DNA from: a virus
Direction: 5' to 3' (one strand)
IMG/VR virus record: IMGVR_UViG_3300000928_000478
Coordinates: 1-28,982 of that record
DNA length: 28,982 nucleotides
Positions 2,905 to 28,982 of this stretch are shown piece after piece (position 1 is the stretch's first letter; each line of letters starts with the position of its first letter). The position numbers and the translations under genes are program-made. Below the pieces are notes generated by a model. The model worked only from the letters and a program-made list of their open reading frames with translations. It had not been told where the DNA came from and did no database searches.

Positions 2905-2928
2905 ATTCGGGATCAAAACCATGAAATG

Positions 2929-2962
2929 GGGATCGCATTAATTTGCGGTCCCTTTTTTTTTG
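2929..2962 (+). terminator. Terminator after the capsid gene
   Basis: GGGATCGC (2929-2936) pairs with GCGGTCCC (2945-2952), 8 bp with one G-T wobble and an 8-base loop, followed by a run of ten T. Confidence 0.9.
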
Positions 2963-2988
2963 ATTAAATAAAAATTCATTATCTTTGC
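2960..2988 (+). promoter_or_regulatory. Bacteroidota promoter for the first RNA candidate
   Basis: TATCTTTG (2981-2988) fits the -7 consensus TAnnTTTG. TTTG at 2960-2963 gives a -33 element with a 17-base gap. Transcription would start near 2993, exactly where the outer helix of the downstream RNA begins. Confidence 0.75.
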
Positions 2989-2992
2989 ATTG

Positions 2993-3122
2993 AACGTGTT
3001 GATCGGATCCGTTGTTGGAGTTTCCGGTCTTAGTTTTCCCAACTCAAGCCACGTTCACTTGAAAATCCTGGTTGGCCATTAATTTGGCTTTAATCGGGAT
3101 TTTCTTCTTTTATTCCCTTTTA
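2993..3122 (+). ncRNA. Candidate structured small RNA 1 (about 125 nt)
   Basis: No convincing ORF lies here. Just after the promoter, GAACGTG (2993-2999) can pair with CACGTTC (3050-3056) to close a domain. Inside it, GATCGG (3001-3006) can pair with CCGGTC (3024-3029), and GTTGG (3014-3018) with CCAAC (3039-3043). These two helices interleave, so an H-type pseudoknot is possible. GAGTT (3018-3022) with AACTC (3041-3045) is an alternative. A terminator-like hairpin follows: AAAATCC (3062-3068) with GGATTTT (3097-3103), holding an inner GCCA/TGGC hairpin, then a T-rich tract. I do not recognise an Rfam family. Promoter, closing helix and terminator together support a free-standing RNA; its role is unknown. 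Confidence 0.6.
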
Positions 3123-3152
3123 ATTATAACTATTCACTATTTATTTTTTTTG

Positions 3153-3160
3153 TATATTTG
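3153..3160 (+). promoter_or_regulatory. Bacteroidota -7 box for the second RNA candidate
   Basis: TATATTTG matches TAnnTTTG. No clear -33 TTTG is visible at the usual distance. It lies directly before the second structured region. Confidence 0.65.
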
Positions 3161-3162
3161 CA

Positions 3163-3385
3163 GAGTTCCGCCGAGTGGCTTGTCTTGTCAAAGAGGGCAT
3201 TTCCGGCACGAAAATCCTCTTGTTTTCCGGCGGAGTAAAGTTTTGGAGTTAGAATCGTTAATGGCTTTGCAATGCAAATTGTACGGCCGCGATATTGTTT
3301 TGGGAGCGCCTTAAAATGTTCTCGAAACTTGTCAAATGCGATTTTGACTCCATTACGATTTTATAATGAGATCGGTTTTTTTTTC
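3163..3385 (+). ncRNA. Candidate structured RNA 2 (about 220 nt)
   Basis: A GC-richer island in AT-rich surroundings with several helices. TCCGCCG (3167-3173) pairs with CGGCGGA (3228-3234), enclosing AGAGG (3192-3196) with CCTCT (3216-3220). A second domain is closed by AATCGTTAATGG (3253-3264) with CCATTACGATT (3350-3360), 11 bp with one bulge. It holds TTTGC/GCAAA near 3266-3278, a GC-rich helix near 3285-3310, and GTCAAA/TTTGAC (3331-3348). The end is a hairpin plus nine T (3356-3384). It is not a tRNA: the 68-base first domain lacks T- and D-arms. The chance 80-codon ORF across it (3072-3314) has unusual composition and was rejected. The rest of the intergenic stretch, 3386-3450, is AT-rich with no feature I can support. 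Confidence 0.6.
3356..3384 (+). terminator. Terminator of the second RNA candidate
   Basis: CGATTT (3356-3361) pairs with AGATCG (3369-3374), loop of 7, then nine T. Its 5' arm overlaps the 3' arm of the long-range helix (3350-3360), so the two folds compete. Confidence 0.65.
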
Positions 3386-3451
3386 TACAAAACAACACGT
3401 TGATTTCCAGGAGGTTAAATAAAAATTGAAAAAATATTTTAAAAAAAACTA

Positions 3452-3465
3452 AAAAAATTCTTTTA
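3452..3465. repeat. AAAAAATTCTTTTA element, copy 1
   Basis: The same 14 bases occur twice more, at 23824 and 23855, before another monocistronic gene. All three lie at or just upstream of a promoter, suggesting an operator or UP-like element. AT-rich chance matching is possible. Confidence 0.4.
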
Positions 3466-3482
3466 AAAGTCAATAATGTTCT

Positions 3483-3490
3483 TATCTTTG
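3483..3490 (+). promoter_or_regulatory. Bacteroidota -7 box before the 135-residue gene
   Basis: TATCTTTG matches TAnnTTTG and lies 34 bases before the ATG at 3525. The leader ends ATTTTTATC (3516-3524) against the start codon. Confidence 0.75.
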
Positions 3491-3524
3491 CATCAAACAA
3501 ACATTAATAATTAAAATTTTTATC

Positions 3525-3932
3525 ATGCAAACATTAAACGAAACAACTCAAAAAGAAATCAGAACATTCAAAAAGAACGTATTATCAAATCTTGAAAGAT
3601 CAATGATCGGAGATTTAAAAACAATCATTGACGTTGTGAGATACAACGACACAAATCATTCATTGATCAACGCGTCAAATGTATCAACAAACTTTAACAG
3701 ATTAGAAAATTTCATTTGCGGAATTTATGACGGGTTTTTATACAACAAAGGAATCAACAAGGAAATCAAAACAATCGAAGATTTTTTCAGATCAAACGAA
3801 ACGGACGAAAAAGTTATGTTGTATCGAGTATTTTCAAGCGTTGAAAACCTTGTTAAAACAATAAACAATCGTTTGGATGAAATGCCAGGTTTTGAGATTT
3901 CAGAAAACGACGCACATGCGCAAAACTTTTAA
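3525..3932 (+). CDS. Unknown 135-residue helical protein with its own promoter
   Basis: Not recognised. The product is charged, predicted mostly helical, without signal peptide or membrane segment, and has one Cys. Near the N terminus is EIRTFKKNVLSNLERSMIGD, and near the C terminus a helix with ENLVKTINNRLDEMPGFEIS. It forms a single-gene unit, with a -7 box 34 bases upstream and a terminator 15 bases after its stop. That arrangement, between capsid and neck genes, is what one expects of a moron-type insertion. Its promoter region shares a 14-base element with the gene at 23912, so the two may be co-regulated. The codon pattern resembles the rest of the phage. Confidence 0.8.
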   Translation: MQTLNETTQKEIRTFKKNVLSNLERSMIGDLKTIIDVVRYNDTNHSLINASNVSTNFNRLENFICGIYDGFLYNKGINKEIKTIEDFFRSNETDEKVMLYRVFSSVENLVKTINNRLDEMPGFEISENDAHAQNF

Positions 3933-19478: not shown

Positions 19479-19721
19479 ATGAAATATAATTCAATATATT
19501 TTGACGAAATTAATCAAAAGGTCCGTTGGACTAAAGATCTTAAAAAAACAAAAAATAAATATAATTATATCGGCGAAGCAACGCGAGTTGAATTTGATCT
19601 TTTAATTGAATTACTTTGGTATAAATACGAGGACGAAAATATTCCTTTATTAGAATTCAAGTCGGTTTTTGACGAATTAAGAATTTTTTGCGACAAAATA
19701 AAAAACAATTACAATATTTAA
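19479..19721 (+). CDS. 80-residue hypothetical protein
   Basis: Unrecognised acidic-to-neutral small protein. It opens SIYFDEINQKVRWTKDLKK, then has helices EFDLLIELLWYKYEDEN and FKSVFDELRIFCDKIKNN. No membrane segment, signal peptide or catalytic motif is seen. It starts five bases after the VRR-NUC gene and is the last gene before the promoter at 19724, so it is probably cotranscribed with the nuclease. Confidence 0.7.
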   Translation: MKYNSIYFDEINQKVRWTKDLKKTKNKYNYIGEATRVEFDLLIELLWYKYEDENIPLLEFKSVFDELRIFCDKIKNNYNI

Positions 19722-19723
19722 TT

Positions 19724-19731
19724 TATTTTTG
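19724..19731 (+). promoter_or_regulatory. Bacteroidota -7 box before the replication leader RNA
   Basis: TATTTTTG matches TAnnTTTG, directly after the 80-residue gene and just before a GC-rich hairpin. Confidence 0.6.
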
Positions 19732-19737
19732 ATCATT

Positions 19738-19816
19738 GCGTCGCGGCAATAAATAAGATTAAAAATTCTCCATTAATGAAGCGACCGCGACCGCCAAATT
19801 TTTGGGGTTTTTTTTT
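19738..19816 (+). ncRNA. Candidate short structured RNA or attenuator before the replication genes
   Basis: About 80 bases start just after a -7 box. GTCGCGG (19740-19746) pairs perfectly with CCGCGAC (19785-19791), enclosing an A/T-rich loop of 38 bases. Just downstream, CCAA (19794-19797) pairs with TTGG (19802-19805), then GG and nine T, as a weak terminator. It may be a free small RNA, or a leader whose terminator limits transcription into the replication genes at 19834. No riboswitch class is recognised. Confidence 0.45.
19794..19816 (+). terminator. Weak terminator or attenuator
   Basis: Four-pair CCAA/TTGG hairpin with nine T (19808-19816), just after the 7-bp GC-rich stem ending at 19791. 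The two may stack. It lies 18 bases upstream of the replication protein ATG. Confidence 0.5.
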
Positions 19817-19833
19817 CAACAAAACAAAACAAA

Positions 19834-20739
19834 ATGAAAGTCAATAAAATTTATAAACCAAAAAAGTTTTCGAGATTTACAATAATTCCGAATTCAATAT
19901 TTAGAAACAAAGGAATTTCAGCAGCCGCAACCGGACTTTATTGTTGGCTTTTTTCACATACCGACGACGCGGAAATTTGTATCAAATTCATTTGCGGCCA
20001 TTTTAAGGAGGGAAAAGACGCAATTAATAAAAGGATCAAGGAATTGTCAGATCTTGGATATTTGGATCGCCAGGAGGTCCGAAACAAGGGAAAATTTGCC
20101 GGTTACAATTATTATTTAAGCACAAAACCAAGTTTAACCGCAACCGGAAAAACCGCAGCCGCAAAAACCGCGACGGAAAAACCGGCGCCGGTAAATCCGC
20201 AACAAAGTAATACTATTAATAAAGAAATAATAAAAGAAGTAAAAGACAATAAAACAAAATCGCCAATTTATAATGATAATTTAAAAAAGGCGTTTCCGTT
20301 TTTTGTCGATTTATTTCCAAAACAATATCAACCAAAAACAAAAAATCAAATTAACAAATGGATTGATTGTCTTGATAAAATTGAAAGACTTGATAAATAT
20401 AATTTAAAGGATGTTTATATTGTTTCAAAGAATTTAAGAAATGATCAGTTTTGGCAAAAGAATTTTTTATCAATTTTAAAATTTAGGAATATAGATAAAA
20501 ACGGGATTAAATACATTGATCGTTTTATGCTTGATCATAAATCAAAACAAAAACCGATTGCATTTGAAAAGATTAAAAACTTGGTTGATTTTTTTGTTTA
20601 TAGAAGTCCAACAACGGGCGAAAAAGAAATCGGAGCAAATACAAAATCCGGAAAAATTCATGAGTTTAATATTAAACAAACATTGCAATCAAATGAATTT
20701 GACGAATTAAAAAATTGGATCTTAAATGGAAATAAATAA
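19834..20739 (+). CDS. Replication protein with winged-helix domain
   Basis: 301 residues. The first 95 form a winged helix-turn-helix of the kind in phage and plasmid replication initiators: SRFTIIPNSIFRNKGISAAA, GLYCWLFSHTDD, then helices ending AINKRIKELSDLGYLDRQEV and a wing. A Thr/Ala/Pro-rich linker (residues about 97-130) leads to a helical C-terminal region containing FPFFVDLFPKQYQPKTKNQI and FWQKNFLSILKFRN, as in DnaD-like or helicase-loader proteins. It lies directly upstream of a nuclease and the primase-helicase. The start is preceded by CAAAACAAAACAAA. Origin recognition is inferred. Confidence 0.8.
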   Translation: MKVNKIYKPKKFSRFTIIPNSIFRNKGISAAATGLYCWLFSHTDDAEICIKFICGHFKEGKDAINKRIKELSDLGYLDRQEVRNKGKFAGYNYYLSTKPSLTATGKTAAAKTATEKPAPVNPQQSNTINKEIIKEVKDNKTKSPIYNDNLKKAFPFFVDLFPKQYQPKTKNQINKWIDCLDKIERLDKYNLKDVYIVSKNLRNDQFWQKNFLSILKFRNIDKNGIKYIDRFMLDHKSKQKPIAFEKIKNLVDFFVYRSPTTGEKEIGANTKSGKIHEFNIKQTLQSNEFDELKNWILNGNK

Positions 20740-24903: not shown

Positions 24904-25254
24904 ATGGCAACAAAAACCAACATATTAAAAAAGAGTTTGATCGAAGCATTGGAAAAATCCTTGGGCGTTGTGACAACCGCTTGTAAAATTGTTGATTGCA
25001 ATCGATCAACGTTTTATAAATATTATAATAATGATTCAAAGTTTAAAGCAGCCGTTGACGAATTACAAGACATGACATTGGATTTCGTTGAATCTCAATT
25101 GCATAAACAAATTAAAAACGGAAACACGACCGCGACGATCTTTTATTTAAAAACAAAAGGAAAAAAGCGTGGGTTTGTTGAGCGCCAGGAAATCCAAATG
25201 AATGGCGAAATCGAATCAAAAATTATTGAATGGACTCCGGCAAAGGAAAAATAA
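24904..25254 (+). CDS. Terminase small subunit
   Basis: 116 residues from ATG 24904; an upstream TTG (24874) lies inside the promoter and is rejected. The N-terminal DNA-binding HTH reads KSLIEALEKSLGVVTTACKI, VDCNRSTFYKYYNNDSKF; then DMTLDFVESQLHKQIKNGN, TTATIFYLKTKGKKRGFVER. The 'NGNTTATIFYLKTKGKKRG' segment is typical of phBC6A51-type small terminases, which recognise phage DNA and load the large subunit. The gene overlaps the large subunit by 25 bases. Confidence 0.9.
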   Translation: MATKTNILKKSLIEALEKSLGVVTTACKIVDCNRSTFYKYYNNDSKFKAAVDELQDMTLDFVESQLHKQIKNGNTTATIFYLKTKGKKRGFVERQEIQMNGEIESKIIEWTPAKEK

Positions 25255-26408
25255 AAGAATATTGTAATATTCAATTTTATCAAACATTAAATTCAAAGGC
25301 GCGGATCAAGGTGCATCAAGGCGGAACAAGGTCCGGAAAAACTTATGCAATTGTTCAATACTTAATTTATAAGATGACAACAACAACGGATCCAATTACG
25401 ATCTCAATTGTTCGTCAAACATTGCCGTCTCTTAAAAGGTCCGTCATGCGCGATTTTATTTCAATAGCGACAAAACTTGGAATATATTACAAAGGGATCC
25501 ACAACAAGGCCGACAATACTTTTAAATATAACGGATCAACGATTCAATTCTTATCAACCGACGATCCGCAAAAAATTAGAGGTGCAAAACACAACATTTG
25601 TTTCTTAAATGAAAGTAATGAATTATTGTTTGAATCTTTTCGACAATTAAACATGAGAACAATTGACGAAATGATCATTGACTTTAATCCGTCGGATCCA
25701 ATACATTGGTTGTACAATGAAGTAATTGAAAGAGACGATTGCGATCTTTTTATAACAACATACAAAGACAATCAATTTTTGCCGTCCGAATTAGTTAAAG
25801 AGATCGAACGAATTAAAGATCGAGATCCGGATTATTGGCGCGTTTATGGTCAAGGACAAAGGGCCGTTTTTTCACAACGACAAATTTTTGGTAATTGGAA
25901 ATCAATTCCTTTTGATCAGTTTCCACAATTTGACGAAATTACGCTCGGACTTGATTTTGGTTTTACAAATGATCCGGCGGCGATTTTATCAGTTGGACGA
26001 ATTAAAGACAAATTGTTTGTACATGAATTGTTGTATAAAAAAGGAATGACAAATCGAGACATTGCAAACTTTTTAAAAGAAAACAACCTGGATCAAACGT
26101 TGTGTTATTGCGATTCGGCCGAGCCAAAGTCGATCGAGGAATTGCGACAAATGGGAATTCTTGCAAAGGGAGCGATTAAAGGACCGGGATCAATAAACGC
26201 CGGGATCAGTATGTTAAAAGAATACGAAGTTTTTATTTCAAACGAATCAACAAATTTAAAACGCGAACAATACTCATATTATTGGCAGCAATTAAAAGAC
26301 AATACAATAATAAACAAGCCGATTGACAAGAATAATCATTTAATCGATTCGTTGAGATATTGCGTTTATTCTAAATTTAAAAACCGAACGGATTTTTTTG
26401 TAATTTAG
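25230..26408 (+). CDS. Terminase large subunit
   Basis: 392 residues, Terminase_3 (PBSX/SPP1-like) packaging motor: ATPase plus nuclease. Walker A is GGTRSGKT (31-38) and the Walker B with catalytic Glu is NICFLNES (122-129, Glu128). The 'DFNPSDPIHW' and DYWRVYGQG segments follow. The nuclease part has the three metal-binding acids: Asp242 in GLDFGFTNDPAA, Asp295 in CDSAEP, Asp373 in HLIDSLRY. It is complete and of normal length. It begins 25 bases inside the small subunit gene. Confidence 0.96.
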   Translation: MDSGKGKIKEYCNIQFYQTLNSKARIKVHQGGTRSGKTYAIVQYLIYKMTTTTDPITISIVRQTLPSLKRSVMRDFISIATKLGIYYKGIHNKADNTFKYNGSTIQFLSTDDPQKIRGAKHNICFLNESNELLFESFRQLNMRTIDEMIIDFNPSDPIHWLYNEVIERDDCDLFITTYKDNQFLPSELVKEIERIKDRDPDYWRVYGQGQRAVFSQRQIFGNWKSIPFDQFPQFDEITLGLDFGFTNDPAAILSVGRIKDKLFVHELLYKKGMTNRDIANFLKENNLDQTLCYCDSAEPKSIEELRQMGILAKGAIKGPGSINAGISMLKEYEVFISNESTNLKREQYSYYWQQLKDNTIINKPIDKNNHLIDSLRYCVYSKFKNRTDFFVI

Positions 26409-26457: not shown

Positions 26458-28188
26458 ATGGCGTCAATCCTGGATCGTTTTACCAATTTATTAAAAAAAA
26501 ATACACAACAAACCGCAGCCGATTATAACAAATCGATTTATAATTGGTTAGGTAATTCAATCGTTTGGAATACTGAAAACGACAATTCTTATATTACCGA
26601 GGGTTATCAAAAGAATTCAACGATTTATTCTTTAATCAATTTAATTACAAAGGCAGCAACAACAATTCCGTTCCAGGTTTACGAAAAGACAAACGAAAAC
26701 GATTATAAAAGATACAAGGCATTGACGTCCGGGATCATGGATTCGTCAACAATACAAAAAGCGGCAATGCTGCAAAAAAGATCGTTGATTGAATTACATG
26801 AAACGGAATTACATAAAATATTAGAACGACCAAATCCGGCGCAAAGTTATAATTCGTTTATGACTGAATTGATCGCGTTCGGTAAATTAACCGGGAATCG
26901 TTACATTTATGGAATAGGACCGGAAACCGGATCAAATACAAAATATTCCGAATTATACGTCATGCCGTCTCAAATAATGGAAATCGTTTCCGGAGGGATC
27001 ATGAAGCCGGTTGATCATTATACTATCGAATATAACGGACAACATAAAATCCCGGCGGAATCAATTTGTCACATAAAAGATTTTAATCCGCATTATGACG
27101 GGAGCGGATCTCATTTATACGGACAATCGCCATTGAGGGCCGGTTTACGATCATTGACAACAAACAATGAAGCCGTTCAAACCGGAGTTAAATATCTACA
27201 AAACCAAACGGCGAGGGGATTATTAATGTCCGACGAGGGCGATATTAATGAAGTTCAAGCGAAACAACTAAAAGAAAAATTCAAACAACAACATCAAGGA
27301 TCAAACAATGCCGGAGATATTATTATAACTCCGAAAAAATTATCATGGGTAAATTTTGGATTAAACGCGTCGGACGTTTCTTTGATTGAGCAATACAATG
27401 CGAGTATTAAAGATTTATGTAATATTTACAACGTTCCCGTTCAATTGTTAAATAATACCGATTCAAGTTCCTATAATAACATGAAAGAGGCGAAAAAAGC
27501 ATTGTATCAATCGTGCGTTATTCCCGAATTGTTAAAGATTAAAGACGAATTAAATCGTTGGTTGGCGCCAAAGTATGGCGAAAATCTTTGTATTGAATTT
27601 GATTTTTCAGTTATTCCGGAATTGCAAGAGGAAACGGACAAGATCGTTGATCAGTTATTAAAGGCCTGGTGGATTACGCCAAACGAAAAAAGGGCCGCAA
27701 TGAATTACGGACGTGATGACGAAAATATAAATCTTGACGATTATTATATTCCGTCAAACTTAATTCCGGTCAAAGGGATCGACGAATTGGAAATCCCGGT
27801 TGAATCAATCGACGTTGACGTTGATAAATTTTTCAGCAAAAAAGAAACAATAATAAAAGATCAAACGTTTGACAATTATCCGCAAACCGCAACAAACAAC
27901 GCCAAAAGGATGATCGAATGGCGTGAAAAATACAAAGACGAAGTCAAGGCGGGAACGCCAACGGGTTGGAGACGCGCAACAATGTTGTCGAATAGAGATC
28001 CTTTGACGATTGAAATGTTAAATCGAGTTAAATCATTTTTTTCGAGACATGACGGGAATCAAGTTATTTCGGATCAGTACAAGGAAACGCCATGGAAAGA
28101 CAATGGATTTGTTTCCTGGAATCTTTGGGGAGGGACTGCAATGAAAATTTGGACCGAAAAAACATTGGACAAGATAAACAAAGAATAA
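26458..28188 (+). CDS. Portal protein with C-terminal extension
   Basis: 576 residues. The first 430 or so are an HK97/SPP1-type portal (dodecameric DNA channel at the capsid vertex): YSLINLITKAATTIPFQVYE, LIAFGKLTGNRYIYG, ELYVMPSQIMEIVSGG, ICHIKDFNPHYDGSGSHLYG, SPLRAGLRSLTTNNEAV, then IYNVPVQLLNNTDSSSYNNM and the ending NEKRAAMNYG. The last 110 residues form a separate domain with TATNNAKRMIEWREKYKDEV, RRATMLSNRDPLTIEML, RVKSFFSRHDGN and SWNLWGGTAMKIW. Domains of this 'RA-x-L-SN-ls...FFxRH...LWGG' type are found appended to various phage head proteins; their function is unknown. Confidence 0.93.
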   Translation: MASILDRFTNLLKKNTQQTAADYNKSIYNWLGNSIVWNTENDNSYITEGYQKNSTIYSLINLITKAATTIPFQVYEKTNENDYKRYKALTSGIMDSSTIQKAAMLQKRSLIELHETELHKILERPNPAQSYNSFMTELIAFGKLTGNRYIYGIGPETGSNTKYSELYVMPSQIMEIVSGGIMKPVDHYTIEYNGQHKIPAESICHIKDFNPHYDGSGSHLYGQSPLRAGLRSLTTNNEAVQTGVKYLQNQTARGLLMSDEGDINEVQAKQLKEKFKQQHQGSNNAGDIIITPKKLSWVNFGLNASDVSLIEQYNASIKDLCNIYNVPVQLLNNTDSSSYNNMKEAKKALYQSCVIPELLKIKDELNRWLAPKYGENLCIEFDFSVIPELQEETDKIVDQLLKAWWITPNEKRAAMNYGRDDENINLDDYYIPSNLIPVKGIDELEIPVESIDVDVDKFFSKKETIIKDQTFDNYPQTATNNAKRMIEWREKYKDEVKAGTPTGWRRATMLSNRDPLTIEMLNRVKSFFSRHDGNQVISDQYKETPWKDNGFVSWNLWGGTAMKIWTEKTLDKINKE

Positions 28189-28191
28189 ATT

Positions 28192-28982
28192 TTGGAAATA
28201 AACCGCGACAAATGGCAAACGGAGTTTGAAAAAAACTTGGACAAAGCGGAACGAAAACAAATTTCAAAGGTCAAACGCTTTTATAAAAAAGAATATGACA
28301 AAGGAATTCAATCGTTTGTTTCGCAAGGTCAAACGTCTTTTAAATTATTGTTTGACGAAAAGGATCTTTTAAAAATTTATAGAGATCTATATCAAGAAAC
28401 CGGATTGCAATTCGCAAAATGGTATTCCGGAAACTTTAAAAAATTCATTAAAAAATCATTTGACAAAAATCAAATTGATATTTGGAAAAATGCGTTTGGA
28501 TCTTTTGGATCCGCAATGGGAGCGCAACGCGTGACGTTAGTAAAAGGGACCGCATTAAAAACGTTGCAAAGAATTACGCAACAATTAATTTCGGATCCGG
28601 AATTCATGACAATGGGATCGTCACAACAAGCCAGGATTTTAAGAAATCAATTTTCTTTATATTCACAACAACAAGCCGAAAGATTGGTCCGAACGGAAAC
28701 AACCGCGGCCGCAAATTTTGCACAAAAAGAGGCAGCAAATTCAATTTTTCCAGGCGTACAAAAAGACAAGGTTTGGATCGCGGCATTCGATGACCGCGTT
28801 CGCGATAGTCATGCAGCCGCAGACGGACAACAAGTCAAGGAAAACGATCTCTTTATTGTAGGAGGTCAACAAATGGCGTTTCCTGGAGATCCGGCCGGAG
28901 GCGCGGCCGAAGTTATAAATTGCCGTTGTTCGCATTATTACGTCCCAAGACAAGACGCCCAGGCAGCCGCCGGAATTGACGG
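28192..28982 (+). CDS. MuF-like minor head protein, N-terminal part (gene continues at base 1)
   Basis: Phage head morphogenesis protein of the SPP1 gp7 / Mu gpF family, a few copies of which sit inside the capsid near the portal. The diagnostic region encodes RLVRTETTAAANFAQ followed by WIAAFDDRVRDSHAAADGQ and, near the end, INCRCSHYY, as is usual for MuF domains. The only plausible start is TTG at 28192, three bases after the portal stop codon, since no ATG lies upstream in this frame and the first in-frame ATG (28513) is well inside the domain. The gene runs off the window at 28982 and resumes in frame at base 1. The joined product is about 521 residues: 256 from here before the overlap, then 265 ending at 798. 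Its position directly after the portal is the standard one. The family call is firm; the exact start is less sure. Confidence 0.9.
   Translation, partial: MEINRDKWQTEFEKNLDKAERKQISKVKRFYKKEYDKGIQSFVSQGQTSFKLLFDEKDLLKIYRDLYQETGLQFAKWYSGNFKKFIKKSFDKNQIDIWKNAFGSFGSAMGAQRVTLVKGTALKTLQRITQQLISDPEFMTMGSSQQARILRNQFSLYSQQQAERLVRTETTAAANFAQKEAANSIFPGVQKDKVWIAAFDDRVRDSHAAADGQQVKENDLFIVGGQQMAFPGDPAGGAAEVINCRCSHYYVPRQDAQAAAGID
28960..28982. repeat. Terminal direct repeat, right copy (assembly overlap)
   Basis: Exact copy of bases 1-23, lying inside the MuF-like gene. Removing one copy leaves about 28,959 unique bases and an uninterrupted gene. Confidence 0.9.

Follow-up and report, generated by a model that had tools for sequence, protein, structure and literature searches.

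Selection on two structured plus-strand RNA candidates in a lineage-specific insert behind a phage capsid gene

What does a phage keep behind its capsid gene in an interval that offers no credible protein gene? The window analyzed here is a whole stretch of viral DNA of 28,982 nt (IMG/VR record IMGVR_UViG_3300000928_000478), which represents a ~29 kb phage genome with Bacteroidota-type promoters. Its bases 1–23 are repeated at 28960–28982, and the genome is therefore probably complete, as a circular assembly. The phage genes include an ordinary large terminase (25230–26408), a portal (26458–28188), a head protease, and an HK97-type capsid protein. Downstream of the capsid gene, whose end is at 2904, an intrinsic terminator (2928–2961, plus strand, identified by a strict terminator scan) forms the upstream border of the insert. 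The next credible gene, ORF 3525–3932, lies behind its own TATCTTTG box (3483–3490, plus strand), the downstream border. This promoter is homologous to the one located immediately behind the capsid terminator of other phages, and the ORF itself was found only in the window's own lineage.

A sequence-only reading of the DNA had proposed two adjacent, GC-rich structured RNA units between these borders. Both are present within 2980–3385, each combining a −7 box and several helices with a hairpin that ends in a U-rich tail. The GC content reaches 47% in the unit 1 core and 55% in the first domain of unit 2, against 34% for the window, and the −7 boxes, previously placed at 2981 and 3153, now map to 2980–2987 and 3153–3160 on the plus strand. 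The unit 1 promoter (2959–2987) comprises TTTG at 2959–2962, a spacing of 17 nt, and the box TATCTTTG; the unit 2 box reads TATATTTG, and no clear −33 element is seen ahead of it. The box motif TANNTTTGC is not commoner than chance in the window (10 observed vs 8.6 expected). In Flavobacterium psychrophilum the −7 box spans −12 to −5 (PMC9723704). By that spacing, transcription of unit 1 is predicted to start at 2992, where its outer helix begins, and that of unit 2 at 3165, one base ahead of its first helix. Unit 1 closes with a terminator-like hairpin of 18 pairs (3061–3104, plus strand) whose U-rich tail, broken by a C, extends to 3112, and unit 2 with a weak stem (3356–3374, plus strand) and a T9 tail ending at 3384; about six pairs of the latter can still form in L003, the diverged copy of the region described below. 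The unit 1 promoter and the unit 2 −7 box are kept in L003, and the strict scan flags the capsid terminator only, so that neither unit's terminator passes it. Past the unit 2 T-run, ~40 non-coding bases (3385–3425) are identical in L003 despite variable flanks.

A capsid search of IMG/VR returned 80 loci, among which L001 and L002 carry an identical region and L003 a diverged copy. Both blastn and covariance searches find the insert absent from the other 77 capsid relatives. In most loci of sufficient length for a judgement, the capsid terminator (letters changed, yet present in nearly all capsid relatives) is followed by a close promoter and then by varied small ORFs. This absence and the varied ORFs mark the region as inserted into an accessory slot of variable content. 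Conservation among relatives, the lack of which the sequence-only reading had named as evidence against itself, is thus divided, with the units kept in one lineage and missing from 77 other loci. In L004–L080, different small ORFs occupy the stretch from the capsid terminator to a conserved small gene (MKTKTGLTIIHDGNRVNVYT...), as in a hypervariable accessory slot, and L075 holds ~230 extra bases without a clear ORF, ~60–310 bases past its capsid gene, which are possibly another RNA or a remnant.

Wider searches did not extend this distribution. Covariance models run over the 77 relatives recovered only the window's lineage, and two unit 2 models run over the whole records of 26 relatives found no homologue beyond it. 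Among the weak matches to the unit 1 model (E 0.0007 to 1), those inspected are ordinary terminator hairpins of other genes. In phage and plasmid records, blastn retrieved nothing above chance level, and two further unit 1/unit 2 patterns returned this lineage and chance matches only from IMG/VR. An S1 pattern (GATCGG...CCGGTCTTA) proved too loose, with 120 IMG/VR loci and no real relative beyond the lineage, and L085, from a unit 2 17-mer scan of IMG/VR, is a chance match within a coding gene of an unrelated phage. A capsid search in genomes yielded only the contig L213 (PBPJ01000031.1), and no named host genome with a close relative; the genome search around that contig ran without a positive control. 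The contig is labelled a Woesearchaeota MAG, encodes a phage capsid that is 55% identical, and is probably a misbinned Bacteroidota phage contig.

Translation of one short frame would give the insert a coding role. The largest frames, of 80 aa, lie on both strands (3072–3314, plus; 3258–3500, minus), and a 25-codon GTG frame falls within the nearly invariant domain of unit 2. Small proteins are nonetheless highly unlikely, as both 80-aa frames run across a promoter or terminators and are shifted or shortened in L003, no frame is common to the window and L003 over its full length, indels of 1–2 bases break the frames, and the plus-strand 80-aa frame has no Pfam match. The earlier view that the interval lacks a credible protein gene therefore stands. 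That neither unit resembles a tRNA, tmRNA, or riboswitch also agrees with the searches: nothing in the whole window reaches the Rfam gathering threshold (the relaxed best match, E 0.52, falls far below it), and no tRNA or tmRNA was found.

The comparison with L003 provides the main evidence that the units are folded RNAs. Identity between L003 and the window is 84% over unit 1 and 90% over unit 2, compared to 94–95% in the otherwise collinear genome. Across four structured blocks, 93 of 94 pairs stay standard in L003 despite 34 substitutions; randomized placement of the same substitutions keeps a mean of 80.7 pairs, and 0 of 20,000 trials reach 93. Twelve of the 13 variable pairs are kept and four are double-changed; elsewhere in the two genomes, the corresponding fractions among variable predicted pairs are 36% (still standard) and 1.7% (double changes). 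The four double changes, against a random mean of 1.2 (374 of 20,000 trials reach four), are distributed among the pseudoknot helix (one), the unit 1 terminator (two), and the second domain of unit 2 (one), and the unit 1 terminator has two additional one-sided changes that keep the pair. Only two distinct sequences are known, so the covariation amounts to a single comparison, and the helices counted were partly hand-chosen; the case is thus good for structured RNA generally and modest for the pseudoknot. Compensatory changes, which had been named as a sign in favor of the RNAs, do occur in this one comparison. At the level of sequence, the comparison shows selection on plus-strand RNA structure and no encoded protein.

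Strandedness bears on two other readings. Eight pair changes are tolerated only through plus-strand G-U pairing and would break a minus-strand structure, and the 116-nt stretch over the second domain of unit 2 has a folding energy of −47.1 kcal/mol as plus strand vs −18.8 as minus strand. A minus-strand RNA is rejected on account of these eight changes and of the plus-strand stability. The same two observations, together with the relatives that lack the insert, render very improbable an element acting as DNA rather than RNA (a packaging or replication site or a cruciform), even with a location within the structural gene region and many inverted repeats to suggest one.

The unit 1 core (2992–3056, plus strand) is predicted, from folding and the L003 comparison, to form an outer helix around an H-type pseudoknot. 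The outer helix exists as proposed, with its 5′ strand shifted by one base (2992–2998 rather than 2993–2999, pairing with 3050–3056), and the two interleaved helices were located exactly where they had been described, S1 at 3001–3006/3024–3029 and S2 at 3014–3018/3039–3043. In L003 both sides of S2 are changed, from G-C to A-U. This double change and one pair gained in L003 constitute the support for the pseudoknot, which the earlier reading had offered as a possibility and which comparative evidence now modestly supports. The nested unit 1 hairpins that a folding program predicts as competitors in the window are lost in L003, and the pseudoknot helix is kept. The core has a moderate fold z-score of −2.6, and its terminator hairpin a strong one of −6.4. 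The inner loops diverge strongly (AUCCGUU in the window has the counterpart GCAAGUA in L003), with all helices kept.

Unit 2 has two domains, as anticipated. The first (3165–3235, plus strand; a weak fold by z-score, −1.5) consists of P1 (3167–3173/3228–3234) and two hairpins (3176–3179/3187–3190 and 3191–3197/3215–3221). With 75 of its 76 bases identical in L003, it barely varies, which leaves covariation uninformative on its fold, and the constraint could have a cause other than folding. The second domain (3244–3352, plus strand) is modeled, on the basis of folding and the L003 comparison, as a three-way junction of P1 (3244–3257/3339–3352), P2 (3263–3266/3285–3288 and 3268–3273/3278–3283), and P3 (3291–3294/3330–3333 and 3297–3308/3317–3328). 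Its z-scores are strong, −6.5 for the window sequence and −7.6 for that of L003, and it is more stable than 960 of 960 control windows of the genome. Relative to L003 it shows a C-G to U-A double change, six one-sided changes that keep the pair, and one lost pair; the loop of the long hairpin is unchanged.

The layout of the region might also be explained by stacked insulators or attenuators, whose hairpins would block late transcription into the next operon and whose RNA products would have no job of their own. The region is indeed flanked by a strong capsid terminator on one side and the next promoter on the other, and it contains further U-tailed hairpins. Other relatives, however, make do with one terminator, the selection detected is on non-terminator parts (internal helices and the three-way junction), and a promoter is predicted for each unit, all of which makes insulation improbable as the function of the insert.

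The best explanation, held with moderate confidence, is that the units are a pair of phage sRNAs specific to this lineage, part of the accessory cargo behind the capsid gene and acting in trans as folded protein-binding RNAs. Transcription by host RNA polymerase would begin, in each unit, at a sigma-A promoter of the Bacteroidota type and end at the hairpin with its U-rich tail. The predicted unit 1 transcript, of ~120 nt (2992 to ~3112), would contain a helix closing the H-type pseudoknot and then the terminator hairpin, and that of unit 2, of ~220 nt (3165 to ~3384), a compact near-invariant domain and then the three-way junction. The 5′ ends of both RNAs would be closed by a helix or lie one base from it. 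The folded RNAs may bind a protein, either a host factor or a defence component; such binding in trans and a benefit to the phage are conjectural. That unit 1 keeps its helices and changes its inner loops points to a folded RNA recognized by protein rather than to a conserved antisense seed.

Regulation by base pairing is the other way in which two sRNAs could act in trans, with conserved single-stranded stretches (e.g., the unit 2 loops) contacting host or phage mRNAs and the helices providing stability. Phage sRNAs that control mRNAs in this manner are known (reviewed in PMC12197685), and the nearly unchanged first domain and unchanged long-hairpin loop of unit 2 make such a role possible for that unit. 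As an account of both units it is somewhat unlikely. Duplex energies with phage translation starts are no better than those of shuffled controls (one exception above the shuffles, a GC-rich stretch at a contig edge, is not a real start), no duplex is found with the replication leader described below, and the unit 1 loops are not conserved.

The genomic position, a slot that holds small proteins in sister phages, may hint at host interaction or counter-defence. A more specific and rather doubtful proposal is that the units are RNA-only counter-defence or host-takeover genes, that is, pseudoknotted protein-binding RNAs in a slot of small proteins. Independently of that proposal, the locus indicates that RNA genes can take up cargo space that sister phages devote to small proteins. 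Structured RNA genes of Bacteroidota phages appear to be little described, and gene finders skip regions of this kind.

One further stretch, the sole other match in the window to part of the query, led to a GC-rich leader RNA (19737–19809, within the region 19724–19833) directly before the gene at 19834, which encodes an HTH_36 protein with a likely role in replication. This leader is separate from the two capsid-side units and better supported than they are. A pattern scan of IMG/VR recovered 37 genuine further copies, which together with that of the window bring the total to 38, in 24 distinct sequences (alignment A6, including L245, L246, L255, L256, L271, and L280); L252 and L283 come from the same lineage as the window. 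In the window, GUCGCGG, the 7-base loop of hairpin 1 (19737–19749), forms a kissing-loop pairing with CCGCGAC, the apical loop of hairpin 2. The loop pairs covary in six versions: GUCGCGG/CCGCGAC, GUUGCGG/CCGCAAC, GUAACGG/CCGUUAC, GUCGUGG/CCACGAC, GUCAAGG/CCUUGAC, and GUCGAGG/CCUCGAC. In the alignment, 99.1% of cells are paired and nine pairs are double-changed, and none of 500 shuffles matches it on four of five measures. A TAnnTTTG box ends 8–10 bases ahead of the hairpin 1 loop in 37 of the 38 copies, a distance from which hairpin 1 is predicted to begin at or near +1; no antisense box of this type occurs on the other strand nearby (19601–19950). The same gene lies downstream in 37 of the 38 copies, and in the remaining one the contig ends. 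On the 3′ side of hairpin 2, a U-rich stretch is followed by the start codon 17–33 bases past the motif. The leader has no Rfam match, and in layout it resembles the pseudoknotted leaders by which plasmid rep genes are controlled. It is a candidate for a conserved regulatory RNA family before a phage replication gene and is directly testable.

Several known systems share features with the two capsid-side units. ToxI, the small antitoxin RNA of type III systems, forms an H-type pseudoknot and is encoded as tandem repeats beside its toxin gene, and phage copies of ToxI-type RNA can neutralize a host defence toxin. Unit 1 is likewise a predicted small RNA with an H-type pseudoknot; it differs from ToxI in having an outer helix that encloses the pseudoknot, with no tandem repeats, no toxin gene seen nearby, and no Rfam match. 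The prohead RNA (pRNA) known from phi29-like phages, whose packaging system has no ordinary terminase, is also a structured phage RNA of 100–200 nt, and proximity to the head genes would fit a packaging RNA of that kind. The units differ from it in coexisting with an ordinary large terminase and portal, in being absent from 77 relatives with the same capsid type, and in lacking an Rfam match, and because of the terminase and of the related phages without the RNAs, a packaging role is extremely unlikely. RNA anti-CRISPRs are comparable as phage non-coding RNAs that could mimic a host defence RNA, with the difference that no CRISPR-repeat-like sequence is evident in the present units. Compared to the reviewed phage sRNAs (PMC12197685), the units stand apart in their Bacteroidota host phylum, in their arrangement as two adjacent RNAs behind a capsid gene, and in matching no Rfam family, and they resemble them in being short non-coding units, each with a putative promoter and a terminator-like hairpin of its own.
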